Part shown: positions 41,413 through 63,528 of the stretch, piece after piece | Layout of the letters: each line of letters starts with the position of its first letter | Numbering within the stretch: the stretch's first letter is position 1 | Origin: Novibacillus thermophilus | GTDB lineage: Bacteria; Bacillota; Bacilli; Thermoactinomycetales; Novibacillaceae | Direction: 5' to 3' | Length of the DNA: 64,000 nucleotides | Assembly (NCBI RefSeq): GCF_002005165.1 | Contig: NZ_CP019699.1 | Span: 2,542,001-2,606,000 of the forward strand | Made by a program: the position numbers and the translations under genes | The notes under the pieces: model-generated | The model's input: only the letters and a program-made list of their open reading frames with translations | The model's database searches: none | What the model was told of the DNA's origin: nothing

Positions 41413-41420
41413 GTGTCTGT
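41413..41420. repeat. Target-site duplication of the IS256-family element (right copy)
   Basis: GTGTCTGT, identical to 40013-40020. Its first codon, GTG, is also the first available start for the remaining part of the enzyme gene. Confidence 0.88.
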
Positions 41421-44400: not shown

Positions 44401-44565
44401 TTCGAAAGGCGAGAAGCGGCTGAAAAGGTAGTCAAACATATGAAACGCTTTAAAGTGTTACTTGACCATCAGCAAGACGGTGAGTTGATATCTGAAAGGG
44501 CGTTTCAAGCGCTTCACTCTCATGCGGATGCATTGATGAAAAAGTGGGAACAGTCCCTTCGGTAA
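41413..44565 (+). CDS. GH28-like secreted polysaccharidase with FN3 and FIMAH domains, 5' end removed by IS
   Basis: Remaining 1050 codons of an ancestral 1095-residue extracellular enzyme. Order: rest of the signal core (SVLLTLLMACSFF), an FN3 domain (to about residue 140), a GH28-type right-handed beta-helix, three more FN3-like domains (about 640-930), and a C-terminal FIMAH domain. GH28 active-site motifs are kept: NADGFEFGNS, TGDDSINF, GHGGVVTGSHTGG and RCKTN, which supports exo-polygalacturonase-like activity on a uronic-acid polymer. AAGGA at the end of the IS, eight bases before GTG 41413, might still allow translation, but the signal peptide would lack its basic n-region. The last 270 coding bases are nearly identical to those of the gene at 61570. 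Confidence 0.85.
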   Translation: MSVLLTLLMACSFFRGISEAESRVSVPEAPRNLQIPTLAYDESSITLVWEKPENYDDIVDFNVYMDGKKIGSSSKDNSGPAKAYIDNFYENIDKDNFHTNILIHNFKVENLQPDTAYEFYVTSVNADGVESMPSNKITGRTTPVKDVFNVEDFGATADDDIKDTEAIQATIDAATPGSIVLIPEGKFISGEIWLKSDITFQVDGYLLGSPDAEDYSRGFWLYDYSTDERSFSLINAHTYDYGSLKNIRIVGDGVIDGNGWKYDDRHPTIDELGNELPRLVAGDNAKVTGGVKVVDGQMSPLDLDSKDTLGILAANQSYAAQQSGMNAKSAYATRSNLITVRGVDGMYYEGFTQLNPAFHGIVNLHSENIVVNGTVSKTYDGNNADGFEFGNSRNIMVFNNFLDTGDDSINFASGMGQAAANAEPTGNAWIFNNYIREGHGGVVTGSHTGGWIQELLVEDNIMYKTDVGLRCKTNTPMGGGARDILFRDNALESIDGDGPFVFTSSYTDPNAAILYEPAETISQFKDMEIVNTTVRNQEGQAQSILITGHRDVGEVFHENIVFRDVKFDNVRSTNIRYGKDIQFYDVEFTNVQDNDGDPWRIANSTGLVFENTTMSPVAEDAAQKPQWEKGSTVRAKSSSDGRSVTLTWSEATDNVGVQGYTVYKNGEKIGMDYTTVSGTSYTVHGLAPATEYTFKIEATDATGNRTSDGPEVNITTLGAKDTTPPTLPENTEIKELTTRIPASDTFSGKEEEVVYPGFTWASVAWEKSSDENGIAGYYVYANGELKGFTPQNQYTLTKLEPGTIYRVEVEAVDVAGNKVDYGTSLEIETAPPYPIGAPTIEGDLNATVKGSSVELSWNEATAVNQDIVGYRVYVNGQPVKPEGVEFTPINRAVTTRDTTFTVDGLDQGDYTFKVEAVGRGVKLSKRERLASQIPNGLVEVEEFRWSGSGPSTEVSLTADVSAADMKALVERFEEKGEFANRDAARSLIIHLTAVDHFERREAAEKVVKHMKRFKVLLDHQQDGELISERAFQALHSHADALMKKWEQSLR

Positions 44566-44783: not shown

Positions 44784-44849
44784 TTGAAATGGCAAACTGT
44801 TCAGTGTATACTAGTAATCGATTACATAAACGTTTACATAAACGATTAC
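44784..44849 (+). promoter_or_regulatory. Promoter with three tandem LacI-type operator boxes
   Basis: Promoter: TTGAAA at 44784-44789, a 17-base spacer, and TATACT at 44807-44812. Directly after it come three palindromic 10-mers spaced exactly 12 bases apart: TAATCGATTA (44815), TAAACGTTTA (44827) and TAAACGATTA (44839). These have the central CG typical of LacI-family operators. The same promoter and two of the boxes recur before the LacI gene at 51164-51216. The 44566-44783 stretch before it holds only the hairpin and T-rich sequence. Confidence 0.85.
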
Positions 44850-44869
44850 ATATGAATGGGGGCGTCGAA

Positions 44870-45967
44870 ATGCGATTTTTCGGTTCTTCTCTCAGAGATT
44901 TATACCGGGAAAGAAGCGGTAAAAGAAAAAGAGAGTCCAGTTATGACCGTACCGGCGGCAACCGTGACTTTTACAAAATTTATCCCGGAGATCGTTGTGA
45001 AATTTTCAATGTGACAGGGTCTGGATGCATCACTCACATTTGGATGACGATGGCTCCTTTAGAAGAAGTAGATGAATCATTTCTCCATCGAAAAATCGTC
45101 ATAAGGATGTACTGGGACGGAGAGACCATACCGAGCGTTGAGGCGCCCATCGGTGATTTCTTCGGGATGGGACACGGTATCACAAAAAACTATTGGTCTG
45201 CTCCGCTCGCCATGAGTCCAGAAGATGGTCGTTCCTTAAATTGTTTTTTTCCGATGCCGTATGCGACAAATGCCAGAATTGAGATCGAAAGTGAAGCTGA
45301 ACATCCTATTAAATTCTATTTTTACATCGATTACGAAGAGTATGAGGGGGAAGTTGATTCACAGCTGAGGTTTCACGCCCAATGGCGAAGAGAATTGACG
45401 AAAGGAATTGACGATAATATTTCGAACGCTTTATACCAGTTCGGCGGTAAAAATACGACAGGCGAAAACAACTACGTCATTTTGGAAGCAGAAGGAAGGG
45501 GCCACTATGTTGGTTGTAATTTAAATATTCACAACTTACGCTTTACCCATGAATGGAATTGGTATGGCGAAGGTGACGACATGATTTTCATTGACGGGGA
45601 AGCTTGGCCGCCGACACTGCATGGGACAGGGATGGAAGATTACTTTAATACAGCTTGGTGTCCGCAACAAGAGCAGAACACGCCCTATCACGGCATTATT
45701 CTCGGCGGAGGACCGAACTGGTCTGGGAAAATAACAGCTTATCGCTATCACATCCAAGATCCGATCATGTTTAATCAGTCCATCAAGGTGACGATTGAAC
45801 ACGGACACAACAATCACAGAAGCGATGATTACTCCAGTACGGCCTATTGGTACCAAACGTTACCGCATAAGACATATCAGCCGATCGCCTCTGTTGAGAA
45901 ACGGATGCCTCTTCCAGATACGTTGCCGTTTAACAGAGAAGACTTTGAAAAATGCTTCAACTATTGA
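44870..45967 (+). CDS. Glycoside hydrolase family 172 (DUF2961) protein
   Basis: A 365-residue cytoplasmic protein (no signal peptide). DUF2961 marks: CITHIWMTMAP, IRMYWDGETIPSVEAPIGDF, FHAQWRR, EGRGHYVGCNLNI, and GTGMEDYFNTAW, where the family's conserved Glu-Asp pair lies. Characterised GH172 members cleave alpha-D-fructofuranosides or D-arabinofuranosides. ATG 44870 is seven bases after GGGGG; the GTG/ATG starts further upstream lie within the operators. It is first in a LacI-controlled unit with a CUT1 importer, so an imported oligosaccharide is its likely substrate. Confidence 0.88.
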   Translation: MRFFGSSLRDLYRERSGKRKRESSYDRTGGNRDFYKIYPGDRCEIFNVTGSGCITHIWMTMAPLEEVDESFLHRKIVIRMYWDGETIPSVEAPIGDFFGMGHGITKNYWSAPLAMSPEDGRSLNCFFPMPYATNARIEIESEAEHPIKFYFYIDYEEYEGEVDSQLRFHAQWRRELTKGIDDNISNALYQFGGKNTTGENNYVILEAEGRGHYVGCNLNIHNLRFTHEWNWYGEGDDMIFIDGEAWPPTLHGTGMEDYFNTAWCPQQEQNTPYHGIILGGGPNWSGKITAYRYHIQDPIMFNQSIKVTIEHGHNNHRSDDYSSTAYWYQTLPHKTYQPIASVEKRMPLPDTLPFNREDFEKCFNY

Positions 45968-46021: not shown

Positions 46022-47317
46022 GTGAAAAAATTGATCGGAGTATTCTTGTTTTTCTTGTTTGCTTTGTGTGTAGGGTGTTCTTCAGATGCTGATAATGGAA
46101 AAAAAGAAGGGTCTAACTCTAATAGCAGAGAGGATACTGTAGAAGTTACTTTTTGGAGACATGAACATGACCCTGAAGAAAAAGCAATGAAGAGATTAAT
46201 AGAGTCGTTTGAGGAGGAGCACCCTAATATTAAGGTCAAAATGGAAATAAAAACTGATTATGAAACAGCCCTAAGAACGGCTTTAGCAGGGGGGAATGCT
46301 CCAGACATAATGCAAATTGATAGCCCCACATTGGCTTCGTATGCTAATAATGGTGCCCTGTTACCACTTGATGCATTTTATGAGAGAGACGGTGGTAAAG
46401 AAGATATTACTGATGCGGTTGTAGAAAGTTTAACCTACAATGGTAAGATGTATGCTGCACCTTTGAACGATGCTAGCCTAGCCATGTTTTACAACAAAAA
46501 ATTGTTTGAGGAGAAAGGGGTGGAATTGCCTCCAACAGATGTAAATGAAGCATGGACTTGGGAGGAAGTGTTAAATGCCGCTAAAAAGTTGAATGACCCA
46601 GATCAAAACGTTTATGGTTGGGTTCCCACTATGGGCATAAGTTCAAACGAAGGGCAGGTATTTTCTGCAATGCCTTGGATATGGCAAGCTGGGGGAGACA
46701 TTTTAAGCGAAGATAACTCGACCGCCAGTGGTTATTTAGACTCAGATGAATCCAAAAAAGCACTTGATTTTTATAGATCTCTGTTTCATGAAGAGGAGGT
46801 TGCGCCACAAGAGATACCTGAAGATGGATTTGCGAATGGAAGACTAGCAATCGATGTTGTAGGACCGTGGCATATCTCTTATTTACAAAGCGAGTATCCT
46901 GATTTTGTTTTTGGAGAGGATTGGGATATCGCGCCATTGTGGAGGGGGAAAGAACAGGTGACTCCAATGGGCAGTTGGAATATGGCGATTTCTTCACAAT
47001 CGGACTACCCGGAGGAAGCATGGTTATTCGTCGATTGGGTGACAGGAGAAGAAGGTTCCAAGATATGGTATGAGCATACAGGTAATTTACCAGCCAGGCA
47101 TTCTACTTATGAAGCAATCGATTCTCTTAACGAACATCCAATGAACATCTTCGTAGAACAGGCGAAAAATTATGCTAAACCACGCCCTGTTACACCTCAT
47201 TATCCTGTCGTTAGCAAGGCCGTAGGAGATTTGTTTGAAGATTTAGCAATCAATAACACGGATGTTGATGAGGCGGTAGAAAAGGCGGTACAAGAAATAG
47301 ATGAATCATTAAAATAA
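46022..47317 (+). CDS. Sugar-binding lipoprotein (family 1 solute-binding protein)
   Basis: A 431-residue binding protein. GTG 46022 follows AAAGGAGGG; the signal peptide ends in lipobox LCVGCSSD. The mature region starts VTFWRHEHDPEEKAMKRLIE and contains DIMQIDSPTLASY and MFYNKKLFEEKG. It is the outer receptor of the importer completed by 47344 and 48255. Codon use is more AT-rich than in the neighbouring GH172 gene. Confidence 0.92.
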   Translation: MKKLIGVFLFFLFALCVGCSSDADNGKKEGSNSNSREDTVEVTFWRHEHDPEEKAMKRLIESFEEEHPNIKVKMEIKTDYETALRTALAGGNAPDIMQIDSPTLASYANNGALLPLDAFYERDGGKEDITDAVVESLTYNGKMYAAPLNDASLAMFYNKKLFEEKGVELPPTDVNEAWTWEEVLNAAKKLNDPDQNVYGWVPTMGISSNEGQVFSAMPWIWQAGGDILSEDNSTASGYLDSDESKKALDFYRSLFHEEEVAPQEIPEDGFANGRLAIDVVGPWHISYLQSEYPDFVFGEDWDIAPLWRGKEQVTPMGSWNMAISSQSDYPEEAWLFVDWVTGEEGSKIWYEHTGNLPARHSTYEAIDSLNEHPMNIFVEQAKNYAKPRPVTPHYPVVSKAVGDLFEDLAINNTDVDEAVEKAVQEIDESLK

Positions 47318-47343
47318 TACATTATTAATAAGGAGTGAAAAAC

Positions 47344-48243
47344 TTGAAATTTAAACAGTTTCCACTCCCTTATCGCCACCGAGAGACAATATCCGCATTA
47401 TTATTCTTATTGCCTGCTACTCTACTACTTTTAACGTTTATCATTTACCCCATGATGCAGGCGTTTCTTACAAGCTTTTACAATTATAACTTGATTAGTA
47501 CTAGCAAAACGTGGGTCGGAATTAACAATTATTTGAACTTATTTTGTGATCATACGTTTTACTCGAGTTTATGGCATTCATTTTATTTCGCCATAATCGT
47601 TATTCCTATACAGACTGCAATTGCGTTAGGACTTGCACTACTAGTAAAAAAGAAATTTGCTGGCGTCGGCATTTTTCGGTCTATTTATTTTCTGCCTGTT
47701 ATCATTTCAATGGGCGTAGCATCTTCCGTTTTTAAGTTAATTTTCAACAAAGATTATGGACTACTTAACGCTATATTAGAAAGGCTGGGTGTGTCTAGTA
47801 TTGATTTTCTATCCAACCCAAGAATCGCGATGATTGGAGTAGCTATTATAGGGATTTGGAAAGCCATGGGTTTTTTTATGATCGTGTTTCTGGCTGGCTT
47901 AAACAATATTCCAAATGATTTATATGAAGCAGCTGAAGTTGATGGAGCTAGTGTTTTCCAGCGTTTTATTTCTATTACATTACCACTAATTAAGCGGGTA
48001 ATGGCATTTGTTGTCATTATTACCACAATGGACGCCTTAAAAATATTTATCCCCGTCTACATCACGATGGAAGGAGGAGGGCCCGCTGGATCAACAAGAA
48101 CGTTTGCTTATTTCATATATCAGACAGCGTTTAATCAAATGGACATGGGATATGCTACAGCGGCAGCCTTCATATTTTTTGTAATTGTACTATTAATATC
48201 GATTATTCAATTACGACTATTTCGGTCCGACGTCGAATACTAG
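47344..48243 (+). CDS. Sugar ABC transporter permease (CUT1, MalF-like)
   Basis: A 299-residue permease. TTG 47344 is preferred since AAGGAG (47330-47335) is eight bases upstream; the GTG at 47335 overlaps that site. LLFLLPATLLLLTFIIYPMM is the first segment, and DLYEAAEVDGASVFQRFISI the EAA loop. Confidence 0.9.
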   Translation: MKFKQFPLPYRHRETISALLFLLPATLLLLTFIIYPMMQAFLTSFYNYNLISTSKTWVGINNYLNLFCDHTFYSSLWHSFYFAIIVIPIQTAIALGLALLVKKKFAGVGIFRSIYFLPVIISMGVASSVFKLIFNKDYGLLNAILERLGVSSIDFLSNPRIAMIGVAIIGIWKAMGFFMIVFLAGLNNIPNDLYEAAEVDGASVFQRFISITLPLIKRVMAFVVIITTMDALKIFIPVYITMEGGGPAGSTRTFAYFIYQTAFNQMDMGYATAAAFIFFVIVLLISIIQLRLFRSDVEY

Positions 48244-48254
48244 GAGGGTTGACA

Positions 48255-49088
48255 TTGAGGGGCTTAAAGGTCATCAAACTCATATTTATGATTTTACTTT
48301 CATTTATTGTATTGCTTCCCGTGATTTGGATGGTGACAAGTTCATTTCGGCCGCACTCAGAAATTTTTCGATATACTGAATTTGGTTGGGAATTATTCAT
48401 CCCAGTAGATTTTACATTTGAAAATTATGTAGACATTTTCTCAAATCAAGATCGTCCATTCGGTGTTTACATATTAAACACACTTTTTGTAGCAGTTGTA
48501 GGAACGGTAAGCGGTTTATTTATCAATGCCCTAGCTGCATTTTCCTTTGCTAAATTAAGGTTTCCACTAAAAAAAACCTTAATGGTATTGTTTTTGTCCA
48601 CCTTGGTCATCCCGTTTGAAGCGATAATGATCCCTCAGTATTTACTTATTAGAGATCTTGGTTGGTTGGACAGTTATAAAGCTTTGATCATACCTCAAAT
48701 TGTATGGGCATTTGGCATTTTCATGTTAATACAGTTTTTTTCAGATATCCCTAGGGACATGTTAGAAGCTGCACGAATTGATGGTGCCTCTTGGCTTCAA
48801 ATATTTTTTCGAATTGCTGTTCCGATAAGTACGCCTGCATTAATTACATTGGGAATAATGACTTTTATTAACAGATGGGATGAATTTTTATGGCCACTAA
48901 TTGTAATAAGTGATGATAGTAGACAATTAATCCAGGTTGCCATTGCTTCATATACAACACAATATTCAACTTCATGGGGATTAATTTTTGCTGCTTCAAC
49001 AGTAGCCTCTATCCCAACTTTGATTATATTTTTGTTTTTACAACGGTATTATGTGCAAGGAATTACGACTACAGGTTTAAAAGGGTAA
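48255..49088 (+). CDS. Sugar ABC transporter permease (CUT1, MalG-like)
   Basis: A 277-residue permease. TTG 48255 lies about seven bases after AGGAGGG; a second TTG at 48249 is too close to that site. LLPVIWMVTSSFRPHSEIF marks the N-terminus and DMLEAARIDGASWLQIFFRI the EAA loop. The C-terminus YYVQGITTTGLKG is typical. Confidence 0.9.
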   Translation: MRGLKVIKLIFMILLSFIVLLPVIWMVTSSFRPHSEIFRYTEFGWELFIPVDFTFENYVDIFSNQDRPFGVYILNTLFVAVVGTVSGLFINALAAFSFAKLRFPLKKTLMVLFLSTLVIPFEAIMIPQYLLIRDLGWLDSYKALIIPQIVWAFGIFMLIQFFSDIPRDMLEAARIDGASWLQIFFRIAVPISTPALITLGIMTFINRWDEFLWPLIVISDDSRQLIQVAIASYTTQYSTSWGLIFAASTVASIPTLIIFLFLQRYYVQGITTTGLKG

Positions 49089-49131
49089 CTTATTTCATCA
49101 AATGGCCTTACTTAAGGAAGGGGATAATAGG

Positions 49132-51156
49132 GTGCTTTGGTTTAATGAACAGGAACTGGCTATCAAATGGTTTGAAGATGGAGACTGGAAAAAATATTTA
49201 CTAGCGAGAAAAGATAGAGAACTATTTTGTAGTACTGCAGATCGAACAAGAATTAACGTTGTCATTCAAGAAGAGGAAGTACAGAATGACGATCAACATT
49301 TGTTATATCGTATAAAAGTGGAAATAACTCCGAATGCGGAAGGGAGGATAAGTGGAGTACAGCTTTTAATTCCTCTTGTATCGTCGCTAACATGTACATG
49401 GAAACCTCACCTTACTCCGAAAGAGGATATGGTGATTGGGGATAAGGTGTTCCGTTCACCGAGTATAATCGTAGAAAATAAGGAAGTGGTTTGTGCACTT
49501 ATCCCGGACCTAAATGACATCCAAGATAATAGGCCGATGCCTCACGTCATGGACTATGTACGGGATGGACATTATTTACTGTACGGATTGTGTGATTATA
49601 AAGCAATAGGTCATGTTTATTATCAAATGAAGCCAATGGAACGTAGTTACAATCAGACTATTAGGTTTCAATTCTATATGGCACAATGGGGAAAAGAAAA
49701 ACAAGCAAAACGCGATTTCCGTCCAATAGAACGTTTTCTATGGGATCGTTTTGCCAAACCGTATTTGGCTGCTGAGAAAAACCAAACACTTGATTTGAAG
49801 CGATTGGAACGCTATGTCAGCTACACTTATGATTGGGCCTTTAAGCGTTGGAAATCTGTCTGTTGGCAGGAATTTGACATTGATGGGCAAAGAGTAGGAG
49901 GGCATGTCTTTATAGTAACCGCTAAACAAAAGCCTGGCCAGGGCAAGGAAGAAGAGTGGCGGGAAGCTAAAAGTATTTGGAATCAGGCTTGGTTTTGCAG
50001 TTTGCGTAGTTCCTATGGGTATGCCTTATGGGGGAGACACTGGGGAGATCGAAACTTAATAGAGAAAGCAGAGAAGAACTTACAATTTGCACTTAGTGCG
50101 CCTCAAATCAATGGCTTGTTTCCCAGTTGTTATGTTGCTGGAAAGAAAAATAGCTGGGAAAAGGGTGGCTGGCAGATGTCTTCTAATCGATGTCCTGATC
50201 CTGGACACGTTGAATACGTTCATTTATTAGATGCATCCTGGACGTGTTATTGGCTACTAAAATGGTTTCGAGACATCAAGCGTGATGAGAAAATACTGGC
50301 ATATGTTCGTCGCTATGTGAACCGTTTGTTGTCTTTACAATTCGAAGGAGGAAATTTCCCATCTTGGGTTCGCCCCCACGACCTAGATTGCTCCCCTTAT
50401 TTGAAGGAGAGTCCAGAGACATCCATGCATATCATGCTCCTATGTTTATTACATGAAATAGAACCTAATTCAAAGTACATTCAAGCAGCCGAAAGAGCAG
50501 CAGCCTTTATTACTGACTATATTATGCCACTAGGGAGATGGGAAGATTTTGAAACGTATTGGTCTTGTTCCAATGAGTGGGAAGGCAAAAAGTACGGAAA
50601 GGTTGATCAAAGGAGTGGTTTATATAATCAATGTAACCTTGGTATGTATTGGACAGCAGAGGCGTTAAAAGAATTGTACCGGATAACTAGGAAATCCATA
50701 TACCTCGAACACGGGGAAAAAGTGTTGGCGGAAATGTCCCTTTACCAACAAATATGGCAGCCTCCCTTCTTCCAAATCCCGACAATGGGCGGGTTTGGTG
50801 TGATGACGAGTGACGATGAATGGAATGATGCCAGACAAAGTTTGTTTGCTCTTACTTATCTTGACTATTATAAGTTAACGGGAATTCAAAGATACCGAGA
50901 TCGGGGAATTTTAGCCATGAAAGCTTCTTTTTACATGATGTATTGTCCCGAAAATGATGAGGTGAAGGAACTGTATGATGCAACTCACCCCAATTTCGAT
51001 CAATATGATCACGGATTTCACATGGAAAATTTCAATCATGGTGACAGTGCGTTGCAAAATCGTGTAGGTGAATTTACCATTTTTGATTGGGGAAATGGGG
51101 CAGCAGCTACATCACTAGCTGAATGTATCCTAGGACACCATAAAAATGCGTTATGA
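49132..51156 (+). CDS. Unidentified large protein, probable (alpha/alpha)6-barrel glycosidase
   Basis: A 674-residue cytoplasmic protein that I do not recognise as a named family. GTG 49132 is likely because AAGGAAGGGG is eight bases upstream; the ATG at 49102 has no good site. The first 230 residues look beta-rich (VQLLIPLVSSLTCTWKPHL). The rest has helical pairs with aromatic/acidic loops, as in six-hairpin glycosidases: SLQFEGGNFPSWVRPHD, ETYWSCSNEWEGKKYG, NQCNLGMYWTAEALKELYRI, MGGFGVMTSDDEWNDARQSL. Acidic candidates for catalysis lie in these loops. It is last in the GH172/importer unit, so it probably acts on the same imported oligosaccharides. Confidence 0.6.
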   Translation: MLWFNEQELAIKWFEDGDWKKYLLARKDRELFCSTADRTRINVVIQEEEVQNDDQHLLYRIKVEITPNAEGRISGVQLLIPLVSSLTCTWKPHLTPKEDMVIGDKVFRSPSIIVENKEVVCALIPDLNDIQDNRPMPHVMDYVRDGHYLLYGLCDYKAIGHVYYQMKPMERSYNQTIRFQFYMAQWGKEKQAKRDFRPIERFLWDRFAKPYLAAEKNQTLDLKRLERYVSYTYDWAFKRWKSVCWQEFDIDGQRVGGHVFIVTAKQKPGQGKEEEWREAKSIWNQAWFCSLRSSYGYALWGRHWGDRNLIEKAEKNLQFALSAPQINGLFPSCYVAGKKNSWEKGGWQMSSNRCPDPGHVEYVHLLDASWTCYWLLKWFRDIKRDEKILAYVRRYVNRLLSLQFEGGNFPSWVRPHDLDCSPYLKESPETSMHIMLLCLLHEIEPNSKYIQAAERAAAFITDYIMPLGRWEDFETYWSCSNEWEGKKYGKVDQRSGLYNQCNLGMYWTAEALKELYRITRKSIYLEHGEKVLAEMSLYQQIWQPPFFQIPTMGGFGVMTSDDEWNDARQSLFALTYLDYYKLTGIQRYRDRGILAMKASFYMMYCPENDEVKELYDATHPNFDQYDHGFHMENFNHGDSALQNRVGEFTIFDWGNGAAATSLAECILGHHKNAL

Positions 51157-51163
51157 AAATATG

Positions 51164-51216
51164 TTGAAATAGTTAAAAACTCGTTGTATACTGGAAATCG
51201 ATTACATAAACGTTTA
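51164..51216 (+). promoter_or_regulatory. Promoter with two LacI-type operator boxes before the LacI gene
   Basis: TTGAAA 51164-51169, 17 bases, TATACT 51187-51192, then AAATCGATTA (51195) and TAAACGTTTA (51207), again 12 bases apart. The layout matches the promoter at 44784, so the LacI protein probably represses its own gene. A four-codon frame with a strong GGAGGAAAGG site (51243-51257) lies in the leader. Confidence 0.85.
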
Positions 51217-51334
51217 CATATCTTTTTGATGGAGGAAAGGAAATGAATTTTACCTGATATATCCAAGGACGTAAAGCTAAGAGTAACCATATGTTGACAT
51301 TAAGTAATGATTCAAAGAACTGGAGTAGAGTTAC

Positions 51335-52351
51335 ATGGCGAGAGTAACCATTAAAGATGTAGCAAAAAAAGCAAATGTATCGACAGCCACCGTATCAAGA
51401 GTTTTGAACAATGTTGGGTTCGTGAGTGAAGAAATCAAAAAACGGGTATTTGATGCTGTCGATCAGTTAAATTATCAGCCTAATGCTGTGGCAAGAAGTT
51501 TAAAACAGGACAAGACAAATACGATTGGCGTCGTCATCCCCGATATTTCCAATCCGTACTTCATGACGATTTCTAAAGGGATTGAAGATACCATTCAAGA
51601 ACTCGGCTATCAATTAATCTTTTGTAGCAGCGACGAAAACCCGGAAAAAGAAAGTGGGTTTTTGCGCCTCTTGTACGGGAATCGGGTCGAGGCTATCGTA
51701 TTGGCAACGTCTGGAAAAAATGAAGAGTTGATAGACGACATCCACCGCGCTGGTATCCCGATCATTTTAATGGATCGAAGGATCGAGCAGCCTGATTTAA
51801 AACTTAACTTAGTAGAAGAAGACAATTTACAAGCTGCTTACGACATTACAAAGTCACTTATAGAACAGGGACATACAAATATCGGTGTAGTAAATGGCCC
51901 AGATCACGTAAGTACTGCAAAAGATCGCTATTTGGGCTACAAAAAAGCGATTGATGCGTACGGGATAGCAGAGGATCCCAACCTTACTTTTAATGGTGCC
52001 TTCTCTCAAGAAGGCGGTAGGCAAGCTGTTGAACATTTTCTTAATTTAAAGAAAAAGCCGACAGCCATTTTAGCCCTTAACAACGCGATGGCATTCGGTG
52101 TCTTGCTAGAACTGTTTAAAAGAGGATACCGGGTTCCTGAAGATATGACGGTGGCTTCTTATGGTGAAATTGAGGCTGCAGAGTTACTACAAAATTTGTG
52201 CATCACGTCAATCAAACAATATCCTTACGAGATGGGTAAAAAAATCGGGAACCTCATTCTGAATTGTTTGCTAAAAAAAGATGTGCCTCCGAGTCACGAA
52301 GTAATTCAATCTACTTTGGTTTTACCAAACAAAAATCAAAAAAATGAATAG
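51335..52351 (+). CDS. LacI family transcriptional regulator
   Basis: A 338-residue repressor. N-terminal helix-turn-helix VTIKDVAKKANVSTATVSRV with the hinge helix NAVARSLKQ, then a periplasmic-binding-protein-like effector domain (IGVVIPDISNPYF, ILMDRRIEQ, TAILALNNAMAFG). It likely binds the CG-centred boxes at 44815-44848, 51195-51216 and 52372-52381. The inducer is probably a sugar or sugar phosphate released by the adjacent enzymes. It is the first gene of the 51.3-63.5 kb unit. Confidence 0.95.
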   Translation: MARVTIKDVAKKANVSTATVSRVLNNVGFVSEEIKKRVFDAVDQLNYQPNAVARSLKQDKTNTIGVVIPDISNPYFMTISKGIEDTIQELGYQLIFCSSDENPEKESGFLRLLYGNRVEAIVLATSGKNEELIDDIHRAGIPIILMDRRIEQPDLKLNLVEEDNLQAAYDITKSLIEQGHTNIGVVNGPDHVSTAKDRYLGYKKAIDAYGIAEDPNLTFNGAFSQEGGRQAVEHFLNLKKKPTAILALNNAMAFGVLLELFKRGYRVPEDMTVASYGEIEAAELLQNLCITSIKQYPYEMGKKIGNLILNCLLKKDVPPSHEVIQSTLVLPNKNQKNE

Positions 52352-52370
52352 GAAGTTTTTTTACACTCAT

Positions 52371-52382
52371 GTAATCGATTAC
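52371..52382 (+). promoter_or_regulatory. Single LacI-type operator box before the isomerase gene
   Basis: GTAATCGATTAC contains the same TAATCGATTA core as the box at 44815. It lies 20 bases after the lacI-type gene and about 80 bases before the SIS gene, possibly with its own weak promoter. The second box of the pair is degenerate here. Confidence 0.7.
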
Positions 52383-52462
52383 CTAAGTAAATAGTATGCA
52401 ATATTCACCGTTTTGCTTAGAAAGAATGAGTGTGTTGAAGAAATCAAGAGGGAGGATAAACC

Positions 52463-53053
52463 ATGAATGTCATCGACAGTTTACGAGATGTCATTAAGGC
52501 TGAAAGTGTCGCGATGCAGATGCTTCCTGAACAAATTGAAGAGAGCTTTGAAAAGGCGGTTCAGTTGATTTGGAATTGCAAAGGCAAAGTGATCCTATCA
52601 GGTGTCGGCAAATCGGGACACATCGGTAAAAAGATCGCTGCCTCTCTGGCAAGTACAGGGACCCCAGCTTTTTTTGTACACGCTACGGAAGGTCTTCACG
52701 GCGATTTGGGCATGATTCAACAGGACGATGTGGTCATCCTTATATCCAACAGCGGTGAGACAGAGGAAGTTCTCAGTCTGCTGCCCTCTCTAAAAAAAAT
52801 CGGTTCTGTACTTATTGCCATTACATCAAACAAAAATTCAACACTTGCGAAATATTGTGATACAGCCCTCACGTATCAGTATGACAGGGAAGCTGATCAC
52901 CTCGGTCTTGCACCGACCACGAGTACGACTTTAACGCTCGTGATTGGAGACGCCTTGGCAATCGTTTTGTCAAAGTTGAGGAATTTCAGAAAAGAGGACT
53001 TTCACTTATATCACCCCGGCGGCAGTTTGGGTCGACAGCTATCCAACAAATAA
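52463..53053 (+). CDS. SIS-domain sugar isomerase, arabinose-5-phosphate isomerase-like (KpsF/GutQ type)
   Basis: A 196-residue single SIS domain. Motifs match the KdsD/KpsF/GutQ group: SGVGKSGHIGKKIAASLAST, HATEGLHGDLGM, LISNSGETEEVL, LGLAPTTSTT and YHPGGSLGRQL. That group interconverts D-arabinose 5-phosphate and D-ribulose 5-phosphate. The CBS pair found in the biosynthetic enzymes is absent, which is usual for stand-alone catabolic forms. Gram-positives do not make KDO, so a catabolic role is expected. The ribokinase-like gene follows after 28 bases, suggesting kinase plus isomerase for a pentose such as D-arabinose. Confidence 0.87.
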   Translation: MNVIDSLRDVIKAESVAMQMLPEQIEESFEKAVQLIWNCKGKVILSGVGKSGHIGKKIAASLASTGTPAFFVHATEGLHGDLGMIQQDDVVILISNSGETEEVLSLLPSLKKIGSVLIAITSNKNSTLAKYCDTALTYQYDREADHLGLAPTTSTTLTLVIGDALAIVLSKLRNFRKEDFHLYHPGGSLGRQLSNK

Positions 53054-53081: not shown

Positions 53082-54014
53082 TTGAAGATACTTGTAGTTG
53101 GCAGTTTTATGATGGATATGGTCGTCCGAACGCCGAGGGTACCAGAAATGGGGGAAACAATTATAGGAAACAGCTTTTCACGCGTTCCTGGCGGGAAAGG
53201 AGCCAATCAGGCAGTTGCTGCTTCGCGACTTCAAGGTGACGTTGTGATGGCAGGGAAGCTAGGAAATGACATTTTCGCTGATGAGTTTCTAGAGATACTG
53301 AGGAATGAAGGGATCGACACACAGTATGTTTTAAGAGATTCAGCACTTCCAACGGGTATCGGGAACGTTACTGTAGACGAAACAGGAAATAATCGCATCA
53401 TTGTCGTCCCTGGAGCTAATTTGGCTTATCAGCCCACTGATTTAAACGCGATTGAAGATGTCATTCAAAAAGCAAGTGTCGTCATGTTGCAATTAGAAAT
53501 GCATATGGCGACGGTAGAACACGCTGTTGATCTCGCCTATAAATACGGGGTGCCCGTGATTCTCAATCCGGCACCTGCAAGAGCGTTAAGTGATGAATTA
53601 CTAAAAAAAGTGACGTATTTAACTCCAAATAAAGCAGAAGCAGAACAGTTAAGCGATATGAAAATCTGTGACAAGAAAGACGTAAAACGGTCTGCAGATG
53701 TCCTTCTCCGCAAAGGAGTCAAGAATGTGATCATTACGTTGGAAAAGGACGGTGCTTATTTCGCGAACGCCTCAGAAGAAAGATTTATACCCGGGTTTGA
53801 AGTCCAGCCGGTCGATACGGTTGCAGCTGGCGACTCGTTCAACGGGGCCCTAGCAGTCGCGATAGTACAAGGGAAAGACCTGAAACAAGCTGTAGGATTT
53901 GCCAACGCTGTAGGGGCTTTAACCGTGACCCATCAAGGTGCCATTCCATCCTTGCCCAATTTGCAGGATGTTGAAAGATTTATTCGCACGCATAAGGCCA
54001 CGCAACTATTTTAA
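53082..54014 (+). CDS. Ribokinase-like PfkB family carbohydrate kinase
   Basis: A 310-residue sugar kinase with TTG start at 53082 after AAAGGAAGTGGAG. N-terminal VVGSFMMDMV and the substrate motif RVPGGKGANQAVAASRL are those of ribokinase. The C-terminal PfkB signature reads DTVAAGDSFNGALAVAI, with the catalytic Asp in AAGD (usual GAGD). Length equals ribokinase. Adjacent to an arabinose-5-phosphate isomerase-like gene it would fit a kinase producing D-arabinose 5-phosphate, although D-ribose or another pentose is possible. Confidence 0.88.
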   Translation: MKILVVGSFMMDMVVRTPRVPEMGETIIGNSFSRVPGGKGANQAVAASRLQGDVVMAGKLGNDIFADEFLEILRNEGIDTQYVLRDSALPTGIGNVTVDETGNNRIIVVPGANLAYQPTDLNAIEDVIQKASVVMLQLEMHMATVEHAVDLAYKYGVPVILNPAPARALSDELLKKVTYLTPNKAEAEQLSDMKICDKKDVKRSADVLLRKGVKNVIITLEKDGAYFANASEERFIPGFEVQPVDTVAAGDSFNGALAVAIVQGKDLKQAVGFANAVGALTVTHQGAIPSLPNLQDVERFIRTHKATQLF

Positions 54015-54155: not shown

Positions 54156-55451
54156 ATGCGAAATCGTAAAGCCGCAGTCATTTTGGTCTCTGCGCTGTTA
54201 ACGGTTGCGTTATTTCTCAGCGCATGTACATCGGATGAAGGATCTGCCACACCGACAGAAGATAGCGAAGGTCCGGCGACATCTGGAGAAAAGGCCTCTC
54301 TACAGTTTTGGACCTTCCATACAGAAGCAGAGGAAACATTCTTTAGGGAGTTAGTTGATGAATACAACTCGATACAAGACGACGTTCACATTGAAATCTC
54401 ATTCTACAACCAAGACGATTATACCACAAAAACGTTACCTGTCGCATTTGCAGGCGAGTCAGGACCAGATATCTTCATGATTAGCCCGGGAGATTTTATG
54501 AAATTTGCCAACTCTGGCATTATGGCTGATTTAACGCCTTATTTTCCGGAAGGGTCCTTAAAGGATTTCTTACCGTCTGCGATCGAAGCTGTTACCGTGG
54601 ACGACAAAATTTTGGCGCTTCCGTTTGAGATGGAGCTGTTAGGCCTCTATTACAACGAAGAGATGTTAGAAGCGGCAAACGTTGAAGTTCCCCAAACGTG
54701 GGATGAACTGATTGAAGCTGCTCGAGCTCTGAATACAGATGAAACGGCAGGCATTGTTTTACCGACTGACACGGGACCGTACTTTAACTTCGTTTGGTAT
54801 CCTTTCCTGTGGCAACAGGGTGGGGATGTCCTGAATGAAGATTACACAAAATCTACATTCGACTCTCCGGAGGTAGTTCAGGCACTGGATTTATGGGGAA
54901 CGATCTTTCAAGAAGGATTAGCTCCATCAAAGCTGCAATACGGACCGACAGAAATTGACAACTTGGGCACCGGCAAGGCAGCGATGCAAGTTGTCGGTAC
55001 ATGGGCGATTCCGCGAATCGAAAGCGAATTCCCCGACGTACCGATTAACGTAGCGCCAATTCCGATCCCTGAGGGAGGACAACACGCAACGGCTGCGGGT
55101 GGTTGGAAAATGGCCGTCAACAGTGCAAGTACACACGTTGAAGAAGCAGCGAAATTTGTGATGTGGGCCTTCGGTGACGACCCGGCTCGTCCGCTGGAAT
55201 GGTCGACTGAAGTCAAGTTTGCATATCCTGCCAGACAGTCTGTCATTGATGCAGGTGAACACGTGTACACTGATGGATTGCGCAAAGTATTTACAGAAGA
55301 AATATATGATTCAGCCATTCCTGAACCTTCATTCCCGCCGGAAGTCGTAGACGCTGTTGGACAAGCGTTACACAGTGTGATGTTCGGTGGCGTTAGTGGT
55401 AAAGACGCCGCAAAGGAAGCGCATCAAAAAATTGTAAAGGAACTTGAATAG
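54156..55451 (+). CDS. Sugar-binding lipoprotein (family 1 solute-binding protein)
   Basis: A 431-residue binding protein with GGGAGG before ATG 54156 and lipobox LFLSACTSD. It is clearly a paralogue of the interrupted gene at 56633: both share LVDEYNSIQD, EMELLGL, PFLWQQGGDVLNED and EGLAPSKLQ. Because the paralogue is broken by an IS, this one probably supplies the receptor for the permeases at 59785 and 60668. Confidence 0.93.
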   Translation: MRNRKAAVILVSALLTVALFLSACTSDEGSATPTEDSEGPATSGEKASLQFWTFHTEAEETFFRELVDEYNSIQDDVHIEISFYNQDDYTTKTLPVAFAGESGPDIFMISPGDFMKFANSGIMADLTPYFPEGSLKDFLPSAIEAVTVDDKILALPFEMELLGLYYNEEMLEAANVEVPQTWDELIEAARALNTDETAGIVLPTDTGPYFNFVWYPFLWQQGGDVLNEDYTKSTFDSPEVVQALDLWGTIFQEGLAPSKLQYGPTEIDNLGTGKAAMQVVGTWAIPRIESEFPDVPINVAPIPIPEGGQHATAAGGWKMAVNSASTHVEEAAKFVMWAFGDDPARPLEWSTEVKFAYPARQSVIDAGEHVYTDGLRKVFTEEIYDSAIPEPSFPPEVVDAVGQALHSVMFGGVSGKDAAKEAHQKIVKELE

Positions 55452-55516
55452 GAGGATTCAAGTGTGGCTGGAGAAAAACCAGTCACACTTGAACCACGAG
55501 GAAGGTGATGAAAGAG

Positions 55517-56599
55517 ATGGATCAGTTTAACGGTTTAAACATGGGCTTAGGAACTCTCGTGAAACTTTCTAACGCGAAGACGAGATCAATCAGTGCCGAA
55601 AACTTTACCGGAGAAAAAGGAAAGGGGGGCATGGCGACGAGTGGAACGGGTGAATCTTTTGCACGAGATCTCGGGCAAGGGTGGAAGGTATCGCCTTCTG
55701 TCGAAATAGAACCTGGGTCAGTGTTTACAATGGCGGAGATCGATGAACCGGGAGCCATTCAACACATCTGGTTAACGTGTTTTCCAGAAAGTTGGCGGCA
55801 CATGATTCTTCGAATGTATTGGGATGGTGAAGATGAACCATCAGTGGAAGTGCCACTCGGTGACTTTTTTTGCAACGGTTGGTGTGAGAGAAGTAACGTC
55901 AATTCACTTCCTGTCGCTGTCAATCCTGCTGGTGGGATGAATTGCTATTGGCTTATGCCATTTCGTAAAAGTGCGAAAGTCACGGTGGAAAATCGCATGC
56001 CGGAAAAAGTCGTCCTTTACTATCAGATCGATTTTACTTTGACTGAAGTGCCTGATGATGTCGCTTATTTCCACGCTCAGTGGCGAAGGAGCCATCCGGT
56101 TAAATACAAGGATGTGCATACCATTGTGGACGGAGTGAAAGGGAGAGGCCATTACGTAGGAACTTATCTTGCGTGGCAGACGAACAATAACGGATGGTGG
56201 GGTGAGGGAGAAATAAAGTTTTACATGGACGGAGATGACAAATTTCCCACCATATGCGGAACCGGCACTGAAGATTATTTTGGCGGGGCGTGGAATTTCG
56301 AACAGCCGAAAGGAGAGTACGGCATTTATTCAACCCCTTTTCTCGGCCTTCATCAGGTCATTAAACCGGACGGACTGTACCGCAGTCAGCAGAGATTCGG
56401 GATGTACCGTTGGCATATCATGGATCCGATCCGCTTTCATGAAGATTTACGAGTCACGATACAAGCGCTAGGTTGGCGCTCTGGCCGTCGATACTTACCG
56501 CTTCAGGACGATATCGCATCAGTGGCCTACTGGTATCAAGCTGAACCGCACGCTTCGTTTAAACCGTTGCCGGACAACGATGGATTGGAAGTAATTTAA
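55517..56599 (+). CDS. Glycoside hydrolase family 172 (DUF2961) protein
   Basis: A 360-residue second GH172-type protein, without signal peptide. ATG 55517 is spaced correctly from GGAAGG (55499-55504); the GTG/ATG at 55505 and 55508 overlap or abut that site. Family marks: AIQHIWLTCFPESWRHMILR, MYWDGEDEPSVEVPLGDFF, FHAQWRRSHP, GRGHYVGTYLAW, and GTGTEDYFGGAWNF. It differs clearly from the one at 44870, so the two may hydrolyse different linkages. It lies between two paralogous binding-protein genes. Confidence 0.9.
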   Translation: MDQFNGLNMGLGTLVKLSNAKTRSISAENFTGEKGKGGMATSGTGESFARDLGQGWKVSPSVEIEPGSVFTMAEIDEPGAIQHIWLTCFPESWRHMILRMYWDGEDEPSVEVPLGDFFCNGWCERSNVNSLPVAVNPAGGMNCYWLMPFRKSAKVTVENRMPEKVVLYYQIDFTLTEVPDDVAYFHAQWRRSHPVKYKDVHTIVDGVKGRGHYVGTYLAWQTNNNGWWGEGEIKFYMDGDDKFPTICGTGTEDYFGGAWNFEQPKGEYGIYSTPFLGLHQVIKPDGLYRSQQRFGMYRWHIMDPIRFHEDLRVTIQALGWRSGRRYLPLQDDIASVAYWYQAEPHASFKPLPDNDGLEVI

Positions 56600-56632: not shown

Positions 56633-57327
56633 ATGAAGAGATGGAAAATTGTTACAATTATGGGTATTACTTTAAGTCTCCTGTTTCAAGTCGGCTGCTC
56701 TCCACAGGAGTCAGGGAGCAACCGTAAGGCATCAAAAGTGATAGAGCTGACCTTTTGGGATTTTCAGTTCGATATGCATCAAGAACTCTTTCAAGAACTG
56801 GTTGATGAATATAACTCGATTCAAGATGAGGTGAAAATTGAGTACTCCAGTCACGGCAATTCAACGGATTATTCTAATCAAAAACTGCCAGTTGCTTTTG
56901 CCAATAATGAAGGGCCAGATATTTTTATGACGAGTGCAGGAGATTTTAACAAGTATGCAGATGCAGGTCTGATGGCAGATTTAACTCCTTACTTTAAGGA
57001 AGGTGTTCAAGAGGATTTTCTTCCATCGACGATCGATGCCGTGACATACGATGAGAAAATTCTTGCGTTGCCCCTTGAAATGGAATTGTTGGGTCTGTTT
57101 TATAACAAGAAGATGTTAGAGGCACATCATATTAAACCCCCGGAAACATGGGAGGAGCTCTTAGATGCTGCTCGTAAGTTGAAAACGGATAAAGTTGCCG
57201 GGCTTGTACTTCCGACAGATAAAGGGCCATACTTAAACTTTATTTGGTATCCGTTTTTATGGCAACAAGGCGGAGACGTACTAAACGAAGATGGTACCCA
57301 ATCCACGTTTAATTCTCCTGAAGTTAC
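56633..57327 (+). pseudogene. Sugar-binding lipoprotein gene, 5' part (split by IS)
   Basis: ATG 56633 follows GGAGGGG; signal with lipobox FQVGCSPQ. Sequence runs as in the paralogue at 54156 to FNSPEVT and is then cut by the insertion sequence. Joining to 59109 (dropping 57328-59108) restores SPEVTAALDFWGTFF in frame and gives a 422-residue protein of normal size. Confidence 0.93.
57319..57327. repeat. Target-site duplication of the second IS (left copy)
   Basis: TGAAGTTAC, repeated exactly at 59100-59108. Nine bases. Confidence 0.9.
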
Positions 57328-61569: not shown

Positions 61570-63528
61570 GTGAAGAAAAGCAGACTGTGTCAAATACTGT
61601 ATTTCGTTACAGCGACAATCTTGATAGTGCCAATGTCCTTTGGAGGTGATGTCTTGGCAAATACAGCGGATGCCGAAGTCCCCGGAGATAGTACTTTTTT
61701 CTCAACCGTTTACGTGGAAGAATCTGACACACTGAACACAGACAGCCAAGGGGATTTATGGGCTTCGTGCTGGTCAGACGACGACTATTTGTATGCAGCA
61801 AACGGCGACGGAGACGGGTTTACAATCATTCCACCCAATACCCCCAATGTTCCGCCGGCCCATGAACACCTGACAGATATAGCAGTGAATAGAATCAGCG
61901 GTACACCTGGAAACCTTAAAGGTGAGACGATAGCTCGGTCCGATGACATCGGACAAATATGGAACGATCCCGATCACTACAATCGTAAACCTACCGGTAT
62001 GGCATGTGTCGATGGGGATCTGTATCTTGCTGTTCAAGATTTAAGTAAAGATTTTAATGATGTCCCTTCTGCCACGATTGTAAAGTCTACGGATAAAGGA
62101 AAAACATGGACTTGGGATAAGTCTGGTCCCATGTTTGACGACCACACGTTCACGACGATCATGTTTCTTGATTATGGAAAGGACTACGAAAACGCGATAG
62201 ACGACTACGTATATGCCTATGGATTAGATTACAACTGGAGAGATTCTTTTAACGACCGGGTTGAGGACCCGACCAAACTCTTTTTGGCTAGAGTACCTAA
62301 AACGAGCATCATGGACCGATCAGCATGGGAGTTTTACACAGGACTTGATGACGGTCACCCCACCTGGTCAAGCCATATTGATGAGAAAGTACCGGTTTTA
62401 CAAGACGATCGGTTAGTCTATCAAGACACATACTTTTCTTCCGATCCGAAGAACATGACAGTCATTTCACAAGGAAGTGTTGTTTACAATAAACCACTCG
62501 ATCGCTATATTTATTCATCGTGGACAGAATATACATTTGAATTTTATGAAGCGCCGACACCTTGGGGGCCGTGGAAACGCTTTTTATCGAAAGATTACGG
62601 TGCATACCCATGGACTGAAACAAAAAACGGAGGTTATGCAACCACTATTCCTTCGAAATTTATCAGTCCGGATGGGAAAACGATGTACGTACAGTCCAAT
62701 ACGTTTATGGGCGGCACGAATAATTATAACTTCTCTTTAAGAAAGATGGTGGTTGAACCTTATGTTTCCTCTACCCCTACTAATTCAAAAAACAATGACA
62801 ATTTGGCGGTAATTGATGAAAGCACGACCCCTATCAATAAAGTGGCACATTTCGGGAACGTAGATTACTTCAACAACGGCATTAAAGAAGAATCAGAAGA
62901 TAGCTGGAACAACGAGCGGAAAACAGTGGACTGGTGGGGGTATACGTGGAACAAGTCGTACAATATGAACACCGTGAAATATACGACGGGGAACATGTTC
63001 AGCGATGGCGGTTGGTTTACAGATGTAAAGGTACAGGTCAGACAAAATTTTGAATGGATCGATGTGAAGAATTTATCGGTGACACCTGATTATCCGAAAG
63101 ACCAAACAGCGGGCAAACATCAAACGTATACATTTACATTTGACGATACGTGGGGAGACGGTGTCAGAATCATCGGGACACCGGGAGGAAGTAAAACGTT
63201 TACTTCCATCGGTGAATTAGAGGTGTACTACGCTAAAGAGACGCCCCAAGGTGTAGGTGCAGCCGACATGAAGGCGCTCGTTGAGCGCTTTGAGGAGAAG
63301 GGAGAATTTGCAAACCGCGACGCTGCCCGTTCCTTAATCATCCACCTGACGGCAGTCGATCACTTCGAAAGGCGAGAAGCGGCTGAAAAGGTAGTCAAAC
63401 ATATGAAACGCTTTAAAGTGTTACTTGACCATCAGCAAGACGGTGAGTTGATATCTGAAAGGGCGTTTCAAGCGCTTCACTCTCATGCGGATGCATTGAT
63501 GAAAAAGTGGGAACAGTCCCTTCGGTAA
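61570..63528 (+). CDS. Secreted DUF4185-like (GH183-like) protein with discoidin-like and FIMAH domains
   Basis: A 652-residue exported protein. GTG 61570 is eight bases after AAGGGTG; signal MKKSRLCQILYFVTATILIV with likely cleavage after VLANTADA. Residues about 45-400 look like a five-bladed beta-propeller of the DUF4185 family: GDLWASCWSDDDYLYAANGD, KPTGMACVDGDLYLAVQDL, STDKGKTWTWDKSGPMFDD, SWTEYTFEFYEAPTPWGPWK, and GGYATTIPSKFISPDGKTMY. DUF4185 enzymes characterised as GH183 are endo-D-arabinanases. A discoidin-like domain (about 420-550) and a C-terminal FIMAH domain follow, both suggestive of glycan or surface attachment. It ends the LacI-controlled region and would start polymer breakdown outside the cell. 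Confidence 0.7.
   Translation: MKKSRLCQILYFVTATILIVPMSFGGDVLANTADAEVPGDSTFFSTVYVEESDTLNTDSQGDLWASCWSDDDYLYAANGDGDGFTIIPPNTPNVPPAHEHLTDIAVNRISGTPGNLKGETIARSDDIGQIWNDPDHYNRKPTGMACVDGDLYLAVQDLSKDFNDVPSATIVKSTDKGKTWTWDKSGPMFDDHTFTTIMFLDYGKDYENAIDDYVYAYGLDYNWRDSFNDRVEDPTKLFLARVPKTSIMDRSAWEFYTGLDDGHPTWSSHIDEKVPVLQDDRLVYQDTYFSSDPKNMTVISQGSVVYNKPLDRYIYSSWTEYTFEFYEAPTPWGPWKRFLSKDYGAYPWTETKNGGYATTIPSKFISPDGKTMYVQSNTFMGGTNNYNFSLRKMVVEPYVSSTPTNSKNNDNLAVIDESTTPINKVAHFGNVDYFNNGIKEESEDSWNNERKTVDWWGYTWNKSYNMNTVKYTTGNMFSDGGWFTDVKVQVRQNFEWIDVKNLSVTPDYPKDQTAGKHQTYTFTFDDTWGDGVRIIGTPGGSKTFTSIGELEVYYAKETPQGVGAADMKALVERFEEKGEFANRDAARSLIIHLTAVDHFERREAAEKVVKHMKRFKVLLDHQQDGELISERAFQALHSHADALMKKWEQSLR

Follow-up and report, generated by a model that had tools for sequence, protein, structure and literature searches.

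Which reaction is catalysed by a protein of no recognisable family that is encoded beside a sugar importer and a GH172 enzyme? The question is raised by a 64,000-nucleotide (nt) stretch of Novibacillus thermophilus DNA (contig NZ_CP019699.1, positions 2,542,001 to 2,606,000), referred to here as the window, in which the plus-strand gene at 49132..51156 encodes the protein under study, Q. Mycobacterial arabinogalactan and lipoarabinomannan have D-arabinan as their signature polymer, and linkage-specific D-arabinan enzymes of families GH172, GH183 and GH116 were reported in 2023. Q is probably an uncharacterised enzyme of the D-arabinan degradation pathway. The reading favoured here, with reasonable though far from full confidence, is an exo-acting D-arabinosidase of a family outside the libraries searched. 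It is based on the predicted fold, the conservation, the gene company, a shared 24-nt repeat and co-occurrence with GH172; hydrolysis, the sugar, exo action and the catalytic residues are the parts that we infer.

The reading frame has no stop through 51156 and gives 674 amino acids from GTG 49132 or 684 from ATG 49102 (49102..51156), and the single frame translated from the reverse strand of this stretch is dense with stops. A Shine-Dalgarno sequence (AAGGAAGGGG, 49114-49123) lies 8 nt 5′ of GTG 49132; on inspection of the sequence, no comparable one was seen close upstream of ATG 49102. Residues 1-9 of the 684-residue reading are disordered in the AlphaFold2 model (predicted local distance difference test, pLDDT, below 50). 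Because of the better Shine-Dalgarno sequence and this modelled disorder, the 674-residue reading from GTG 49132 is the likelier one. All searches used the 684-residue reading, and its numbering is kept throughout. In this numbering Q would comprise a beta-sandwich (about residues 14-200) and an (alpha/alpha)6 toroid (about 207-684). The 674-residue open reading frame of the preliminary description is confirmed by the open frame and by at least 79 relatives beyond the window's own sequence.

Q matched no Pfam and no NCBIfam family at E<=1. Among PDB sequences none was found below E=0.5 with the single sequence, and a 40-row profile reached E=1.4 at best. The PDB rows at E 0.5-1.4 and the sole PHROG row (a holin, E=0.37) were taken as chance. 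These results agree with the earlier view that the protein has no recognisable family. A clear profile match to a known family with an unrelated substrate, which the same description regarded as decisive against its proposal, was looked for, and none was clear. A literature search, mostly of titles and abstract openings, tied no paper to the Q family. By these searches the family appears to lie outside Pfam, NCBIfam, PHROGs and PDB, and it may have a recent GH number in CAZy.

Relatives were taken as the best 80 of 213 confirmed related stretches found in a scan of genome contigs. One of these, L002, is the window's own sequence. The others, at least 79 in all, are 37-64% identical to Q and come from seven phyla by their record titles. 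On the tree, subfamily A holds 29 Bacillota loci at 50-64% identity to Q. Subfamily B holds 50 loci at 37-42% identity, from Bacteroidota, Bacillota, Planctomycetota, Acidobacteriota, Chloroflexota and Hydrogenedentota, with one from Gemmatimonadota and one unplaced. L002 (JAJYSO010000243.1) is a contig filed under a Bacteroidetes metagenome-assembled genome (MAG) at 0.97x coverage; it carries Q at 100% identity, its lacI and permease genes also match those of the window best, and it was probably mis-binned from the window's species. Sixty related genomes searched have no copy of Q (1 of 61 with one, counting the window's own). Q is thus patchy in its own lineage, which suggests that the gene was gained by transfer. 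Plasmid records held no Q relative at E<=1e-5.

In the AlphaFold2 model of the whole protein (pLDDT 91.4; predicted template modelling score 0.93), a mutarotase-like beta-sandwich is followed by an (alpha/alpha)6 toroid, and residues 1-206 modelled alone (pLDDT 91.3) agree with the whole-protein model. The beta-rich N-terminal part and the helical toroid that had been proposed from the letters are therefore both seen in the models, and a glycosidase-type protein is supported at the level of the predicted fold. Foldseek matched the model to PL27, GH94, GH52, GH116 and AGE-type toroids. In structural alignment, 49 of the 50 listed rows fit the toroid at Z 22-27 (GH76, epimerases and others; root-mean-square deviation, rmsd, 3.0-4.2 Å over 284-374 residues), with GH76, cellobiose epimerases and an uncharacterised exported protein tied. 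Phosphorylases and GH116 are not among these 50 rows, an absence that does not exclude either. The N-terminal domain alone aligned at Z 8-10 with mutarotases and with the sandwiches of GH2, GH38, GH15, PL17 and GH94. The fold searches thus place the modelled parts of Q among many carbohydrate-active folds and single out no family.

The remaining row is a whole-length alignment to 5NO8, which we take to be a PL27 L-rhamnose-alpha-1,4-D-glucuronate lyase (BACCELL_00875). It is also the best whole-chain Foldseek match (E=1.6e-9) and has the same domain order as Q; its structural alignment (Z 23.5, rmsd 5.9 Å over 479 residues, 9% identity) is no better than those of other toroids. Together with the AGE-type epimerases, which align over the toroid at Z 22-26, it raises the possibility that Q is a lyase of the PL27 kind or an epimerase or isomerase of the AGE kind. 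This is improbable. Q has no sequence similarity to any PDB chain, and the alignments with AGE-type chains do not begin before about residue 222, which leaves the conserved 200-residue sandwich unexplained. The gene company, with GH172, GH183 and GH116, acts on a neutral pentan and argues against a Rha-GlcA substrate. No uronate-catabolic gene was recognised among the flank genes scanned with Pfam, and D-arabinan contains no uronic acid; the lyase option of the preliminary description is disfavoured for these reasons. The searches also bear on an inverting phosphorylase of the GH94/GH65 type that would release D-arabinose-1-phosphate. The N-terminal domain ranks cellodextrin phosphorylase first and kojibiose phosphorylase among the top matches, weakly (E 0.004-0.03), and in the Foldseek search with the whole model cellobionic acid phosphorylase ranks third. 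However, the clusters encode kinases for free sugar, and no phosphopentomutase was recognised among the flank genes scanned, so that this reading is the least probable of those considered.

Conservation was read from an alignment that joined 39 of the 79 relatives to the window's own sequence, 40 sequences in all. Residues E288, D377, E481, D482, E484, C489, E544, D571, E573, N575, D576, R578, E642, N643 and H646, among others, are invariant in all 40. Several of them fall in three loops, namely WEDFETYWSC (residues 480-489, with E481, D482, E484 and C489; 50539..50568, plus strand), D571-x-E573-x-N575-D576-x-R578 (50812..50835, plus strand) and M641-E642-N643-x-x-H646 (51022..51039, plus strand). 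Eight loop acids (E288, E481, D482, E484, D571, E573, D576 and E642) do not vary in any of the 40 sequences. By the helix limits of the model, one end of the toroid bears the long loops with E288, E481-E484, D571-D576 and E642; D377 is close to the start of a helix, E544 is inside one, and D151 belongs to the sandwich. The sugar chain would run over the opening of the (alpha/alpha)6 toroid, the site of most of the invariant acids (with D377 at the helix start), and two of these acids could act as general acid and as nucleophile or base.

Comparison with known families gave scattered matches for members other than Q. At E<=1, 16 Pfam families were matched by any of the 40 members; GH116 (PF04685/PF12215) is not among them. 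The toroid families GH88, GH127, GH47, C5-epimerase and AGE were each matched weakly by 6 to 16 members, and Q itself matches none of them. PF07944 (GH127/GH146) was matched by 16 of the 40 (best E=1.5e-4) and PF07470 (GH88/GH105) likewise by 16 (best E=5e-8); L032 scored 32.7 bits against PF07470 (cut-off 26.6), but over residues 380-481 only, 105 of the 352 profile positions. Since these matches, that to pectate lyase included, spread over several toroid families and did not point to one, they were set aside, and the NCBIfam rows of members (best E=0.0018, LanM) were treated likewise. Membership of GH172 was rejected, as Q has no DUF2961 profile match and its model has no double jelly roll, the fold described for GH172 in PMC10509167. 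Membership of GH116 was rejected as well. In a profile comparison by hhalign with eight GH116 sequences from the same loci the probability was 0.1% (E=0.64). For the catalytic Glu431 and Asp557 of ExoMA2, the profiles gave no counterpart in Q that could be aligned. ExoMA2, the exo-beta-D-arabinofuranosidase of GH116 subfamily 4 (8IC6/8IC7; PMC10509167), does consist of a beta-sandwich followed by an (alpha/alpha)6 barrel, like Q in its model; the combination is shared by many families and is not diagnostic.

One tie to D-arabinan is the company of GH172. Flanks of up to 10 kilobases (kb) per locus were examined, some contigs being short, and GH172 was found in those of 35 of the 79 loci. For whole genomes, 47 carriers were searched, the window's own and 46 others to which 46 of the 79 loci led, and GH172 is present in 46 of the 47. 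The locus lies with GH172 in 28 of the 47, against 1.36 expected from the number of GH172 genes and the genome size; 200,000 simulations never gave more than 8. In a 295-genome sample of the Cohnella silvisoli family (Paenibacillaceae by NCBI), 39 genomes carry the Q family (E<=1e-50). GH172 (E<=1e-10) occurs in 38 of these 39 and in 75 of the 256 non-carriers (Fisher p=4e-17, uncorrected for kinship), and at least 17 of 56 Q-family places in this sample have GH172 within 12 kb. The GH172-neighbour label has to change 14 times on the family tree; this speaks against inheritance of one cluster, although short contigs may add changes. The GH172 exo-alpha-D-arabinofuranosidases (ExoMA1, DgGH172a/c) are thus near-constant genome partners and frequent cluster partners of the Q family. 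DUF4185 was found in 30 of 46 carriers (E<=0.001), in 27 over the cut-off; this was weighed less than GH172 because many matches are partial (model about 160-290).

Within the window Q appears to belong to an operon. A promoter-like site (TTGAAA-17-TATACT) with an operator-like array, AATCGATTACATAAACGTTTACATAAACGATTACAT, behind it stands at 44784..44851 (plus strand, as are the other features of this operon and of the unit downstream), ahead of GH172 paralog a (DUF2961; 44789..45967, Pfam E=1.3e-84). The listed ATG of this gene, 44789, falls within the promoter-like site, so that its true start is probably ATG 44852 or 44870. A sugar importer of the ATP-binding cassette (ABC) type follows, with a solute-binding protein (46022..47317, SBP_bac_1 E=1.7e-43) and two permeases (47335..48243, BPD_transp_1 E=4.5e-17; 48249..49088, E=4.7e-16). 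The stop of the second permease is separated from ATG 49102 by 13 nt, and a scan of 47671-51156 found no plus-strand terminator-like site. From this arrangement we infer that Q is co-transcribed with the importer, and the operon shared with importer and GH172 that was claimed earlier is supported to that extent.

A second copy of the promoter-operator-like module (51164..51219) precedes the gene for a LacI-family repressor (51335..52351, Pfam LacI E=1.9e-21). The two copies share an exact 24-nt repeat, AATCGATTACATAAACGTTTACAT, at 44816-44839 and 51196-51219, downstream of the matching TTGAAA-17-TATACT sites, and the 24-nt pattern had no match in 100 shuffles. A third operator-like palindrome, TGTAATCGATTACC, stands at 52370..52383 ahead of kdsD; at up to 3 mismatches the palindrome has 8 matches in the window, with 2.9 expected. 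The 24-nt repeat is likely to be a LacI-type operator, a candidate that the repressor presumably binds. As the repeat stands ahead of both, the GH172a-importer-Q unit and the downstream lacI unit probably form one regulon.

Beyond lacI lie the genes for a 196-residue KdsD-like D-arabinose-5-phosphate isomerase with the SIS domain only (52463..53053; TIGR00393, KpsF/GutQ subfamily, 222 bits, cut-off 203.7), a ribokinase-family sugar kinase (53082..54014; TIGR02152, 349.7 bits, cut-off 299.65), a second solute-binding protein (54156..55451; SBP_bac_1 E=5.2e-39) and GH172 paralog b (55505..56599). Among PDB matches of the isomerase, arabinose-5-phosphate isomerase 2XHZ (E=3.8e-47) ranks second behind phosphosugar isomerase 5UQI. 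GH172b is orthologous to ExoMA1, an exo-alpha-D-arabinofuranosidase from Microbacterium arabinogalactanolyticum, in which Asn253 blocks fructofuranose (PMC10509167). It matches the ExoMA1 structure 8IC8 at E=4.6e-140 (470 bits) and, with the position counted along the printed alignment, retains Asn253. Of the components expected at a D-arabinan locus, the window therefore holds a predicted exo-alpha-D-arabinofuranosidase and, by homology, an importer with D-arabinose catabolism (solute-binding protein, two permeases, KdsD-like isomerase and ribokinase); no GH116 match was found across its whole genome.

These genes can be arranged into a pathway. The ABC importer would bring D-arabinofuranose oligosaccharides into the cytoplasm, where the two GH172 enzymes and Q would clip D-arabinose off them. 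A cytoplasmic site is assigned to Q because no signal peptide is visible by eye; ExoMA2 likewise has none in the Gram-positive examples of PMC10509167. The ribokinase-family enzyme would then probably convert D-arabinose to D-arabinose-5-phosphate, and KdsD would convert this to D-ribulose-5-phosphate.

The Q family can also be followed into a D-arabinan utilisation cluster. In Dysgonomonas sp. UBA7710, a close relative of Dysgonomonas gadei, a GH172c enzyme is 98% identical over 322 residues to DgGH172c, which is DG02479. Counting frames of at least 90 residues, its cluster runs through a major facilitator superfamily protein, GH172, GH116, DUF6786, a Q-family member, a 1.5-domain GH172, FucI, SusC and SusD, and continues with a 138-residue protein, SusC, SusD, a 314-residue protein, GH172c, GH183, GH183 and an FGGY kinase. 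In Dysgonomonas gadei PUL42, 02467, 02471 and 02479 are GH172a, b and c, of which b has 1.5 DUF2961 domains, and DUF4185 is assigned to 02480 and 02481 (PMC10115798); 02468 is a putative GH116 (PMC10509167). By gene count the UBA7710 order fits HMPREF9455_02467-02481 at these six named anchors. Since all six fall in place, the Q family should occupy the slot of HMPREF9455_02470, and by this synteny the protein should be a subfamily B member; its UBA7710 counterpart is 40% identical to Q. Passages of the two papers give HMPREF9455_02470 no function, and a search for the tags 02468, 02469 and 02470 in the parts of the literature covered returned a single mention, of 02468. Nine further PUL42 proteins, several lacking annotation, were among the 200 most abundant on D-arabinan (PMC10115798). 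In the genus Dysgonomonas, 4 of 25 genomes carry the Q family. DUF6786 (PF20583) proteins of about 340-465 residues recur beside subfamily B loci of Bacteroidota (L038, L044, L059, L063, L067, L069, L074, L076 and L080), as one cluster of nine loci with one member named by Pfam; by gene count the protein corresponds to D. gadei slot 02469. The D-arabinan context is thus stronger than the preliminary description supposed, with an ExoMA1 ortholog, KdsD, ribokinase, PUL42 synteny and the GH172 genes of the carriers.

The sugar released can be approached through the catabolic genes. Besides the window, kdsD occurs in L016, L018, L022, L025 and L073 (5 of the 79 loci), accompanied by a ribokinase in the window, L016, L022 and L025. 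An L-fucose/D-arabinose isomerase or an FGGY kinase is found in 15 of the 79 (by clustering, with Pfam of single members), and by clustering the two routes never meet in one of the 79 loci. D-arabinose is the sugar that would fit both, given what these families of enzymes are known to act on. L003 and L010 share one gene order, histidine kinase, response regulator, solute-binding protein, two permeases, Q relative, fucose-type isomerase and FGGY kinase, and L007 falls in the same gene clusters. The run holds no other glycosidase among the flank genes scanned (for L007 by clustering), which hints at the pentose itself as the product. L031 had been suspected from gene sizes to be another isomerase-kinase locus and was rejected, its flank genes encoding SpoIIE and GGDEF/HD proteins. 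The run in L003, L007 and L010 bears on a different role, in which Q would strip a non-arabinose cap or side group (for example mannose, an amino sugar or another pentose) and so clear the way for GH172 and GH116. Such a role would suit the full endo, alpha and beta set of the PUL42-like cluster, beside which an extra D-arabinosidase seems unneeded, and the good alignment of the toroid with the alpha-mannanase GH76, tied with others. The pentose product suggested by the run speaks against it, and it is considered unlikely.

Whether Q supplies the beta step depends on GH116. A genome was counted as having an ExoMA2-like GH116 when its best row matched the GH116 of L038 at 51% identity or more across 360 residues or more; this L038 protein lies one gene from the Q relative in its cluster and matches ExoMA2 at E=7e-112. 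Rows at or below 44% and C-terminal rows of 44-52% over about 150-215 residues (in proteins otherwise at 30-34%) were dropped, as was genome G101, in which a contig end leaves only a 130-residue fragment at 53%. Matches to the GH116 Pfam family, seen in 37 of 46 carriers and above the cut-off in 32, were not used because the family includes other kinds of GH116. By this count 26 of the 47 carriers have no ExoMA2-like GH116, a number that gaps in MAGs may inflate, and the window genome combines an ExoMA1-like GH172 with no GH116 match. These observations, and the sandwich joined to a toroid as in GH116, would suit Q as specifically an exo-beta-D-arabinofuranosidase, a second solution to the task of ExoMA2, and this is a serious candidate though held at well below even confidence. 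It is opposed by the other 21 carriers, which have both proteins (adjacent or a few genes apart in L038, L063, L078 and L081), by the failed profile comparison with GH116, and by the subfamilies, which do not differ in ExoMA2-like GH116 (8 of 20 genomes for one and 13 of 27 for the other, each genome being assigned by its locus of access). Q as a general replacement for GH116 was rejected on the 21 carriers; the two share some loci side by side, have no detectable sequence relation and are not simple replacements for each other. The earlier suggestion of a missing beta-linkage activity may hold in the window's genome, where no GH116 was found, and is not supported as a general statement.

Several observations weigh against the favoured reading of Q as an exo-acting D-arabinosidase. 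ExoMA2-like GH116, at 51% identity or more, is present in 21 of 47 carriers, and EndoMA1, ExoMA1 and ExoMA2 together degrade the tested D-arabinan substrates to monomers (PMC10509167), so that no linkage is known to be left over. GH172 is missing from the examined flanks of 44 of the 79 loci, some of them on short contigs, and one carrier, L004 (Cohnella cholangitidis), lacks GH172 altogether. The GH172a of the window is about equally near BACUNI 4KQ7 (293 bits), the fructofuranosidase alphaFFase1 7V1V (271 bits) and DgGH172c 8AH3 (267 bits), which makes its sugar less certain, and the window has no clear GH183. Promoter-like sites alone are no commoner than in shuffles (20 against 26.0), and the sandwich-toroid pair is also used by phosphorylases and lyases. 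Upstream of its run, L003 has the gene for a secreted S-layer protein that contains a domain of PF06439 ('3-keto-disaccharide hydrolase'), and some Bacillota loci hold GH42 (L018, L020), GH31 (L009) or a sulfatase (L027); some members of the family may serve other glycans.

From the sufficiency of the three enzymes and the carriers that have GH116 it follows that an exo-acting D-arabinosidase would either duplicate the beta step with another preference or take a linkage or cap absent from those substrates. The likeliest single linkage, named tentatively, is beta-D-Araf. An alpha linkage or an acceptor that GH172 handles poorly comes second and is rather doubtful. Somewhere between these two in probability, and hence also doubtful, is the broadest proposal, a new GH family over seven phyla that would be the core D-arabinosidase of D-arabinan degradation, PUL42 included, and would perform the exo-beta step where GH116 is missing.

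Other features lie around this group of genes. A secreted-looking protein (by eye; 61570..63528, plus strand) has a DUF4185/GH183-like stretch at 61990-62577 and a C-terminal FIMAH domain. The DUF4185 match (46.2 bits, cut-off 39.5, in a six-frame search) was absent from hmmscan at E<=0.01, no PDB match was found at E<=0.1, and the protein is possibly a divergent relative of GH183. Partial DUF4185 matches of this kind (model about 160-290) recur in other carrier genomes. Its FIMAH domain is 98.9% identical over 91 residues to that at the C-terminus of a GH28-like protein (41413-44565), which may reflect recent domain copying or gene conversion. The gene for a third solute-binding protein is apparently split (56633-57331 and 59215-59682), with a DDE transposase (57458-59086) between; each piece is similar to one end of the intact protein at 54156-55451, the second at 60% identity and the first by eye. 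Just beyond the window end (L083:9650-15302; G000:C1, about 2609650-2615302) a YcaO protein is followed by separate lantibiotic-dehydratase N and C parts, predicted to form a cluster for a ribosomally synthesized and post-translationally modified peptide beside the arabinan locus.

Q thus represents an uncharacterised glycosidase-like family with a known fold class, a known pathway and a strong genomic tie to D-arabinan. A further D-arabinan family with a well-predicted fold, a wide spread and named partners would be a new analytical tool, and it would make D-arabinan loci easier to identify in soil Firmicutes, Planctomycetes and Acidobacteria.

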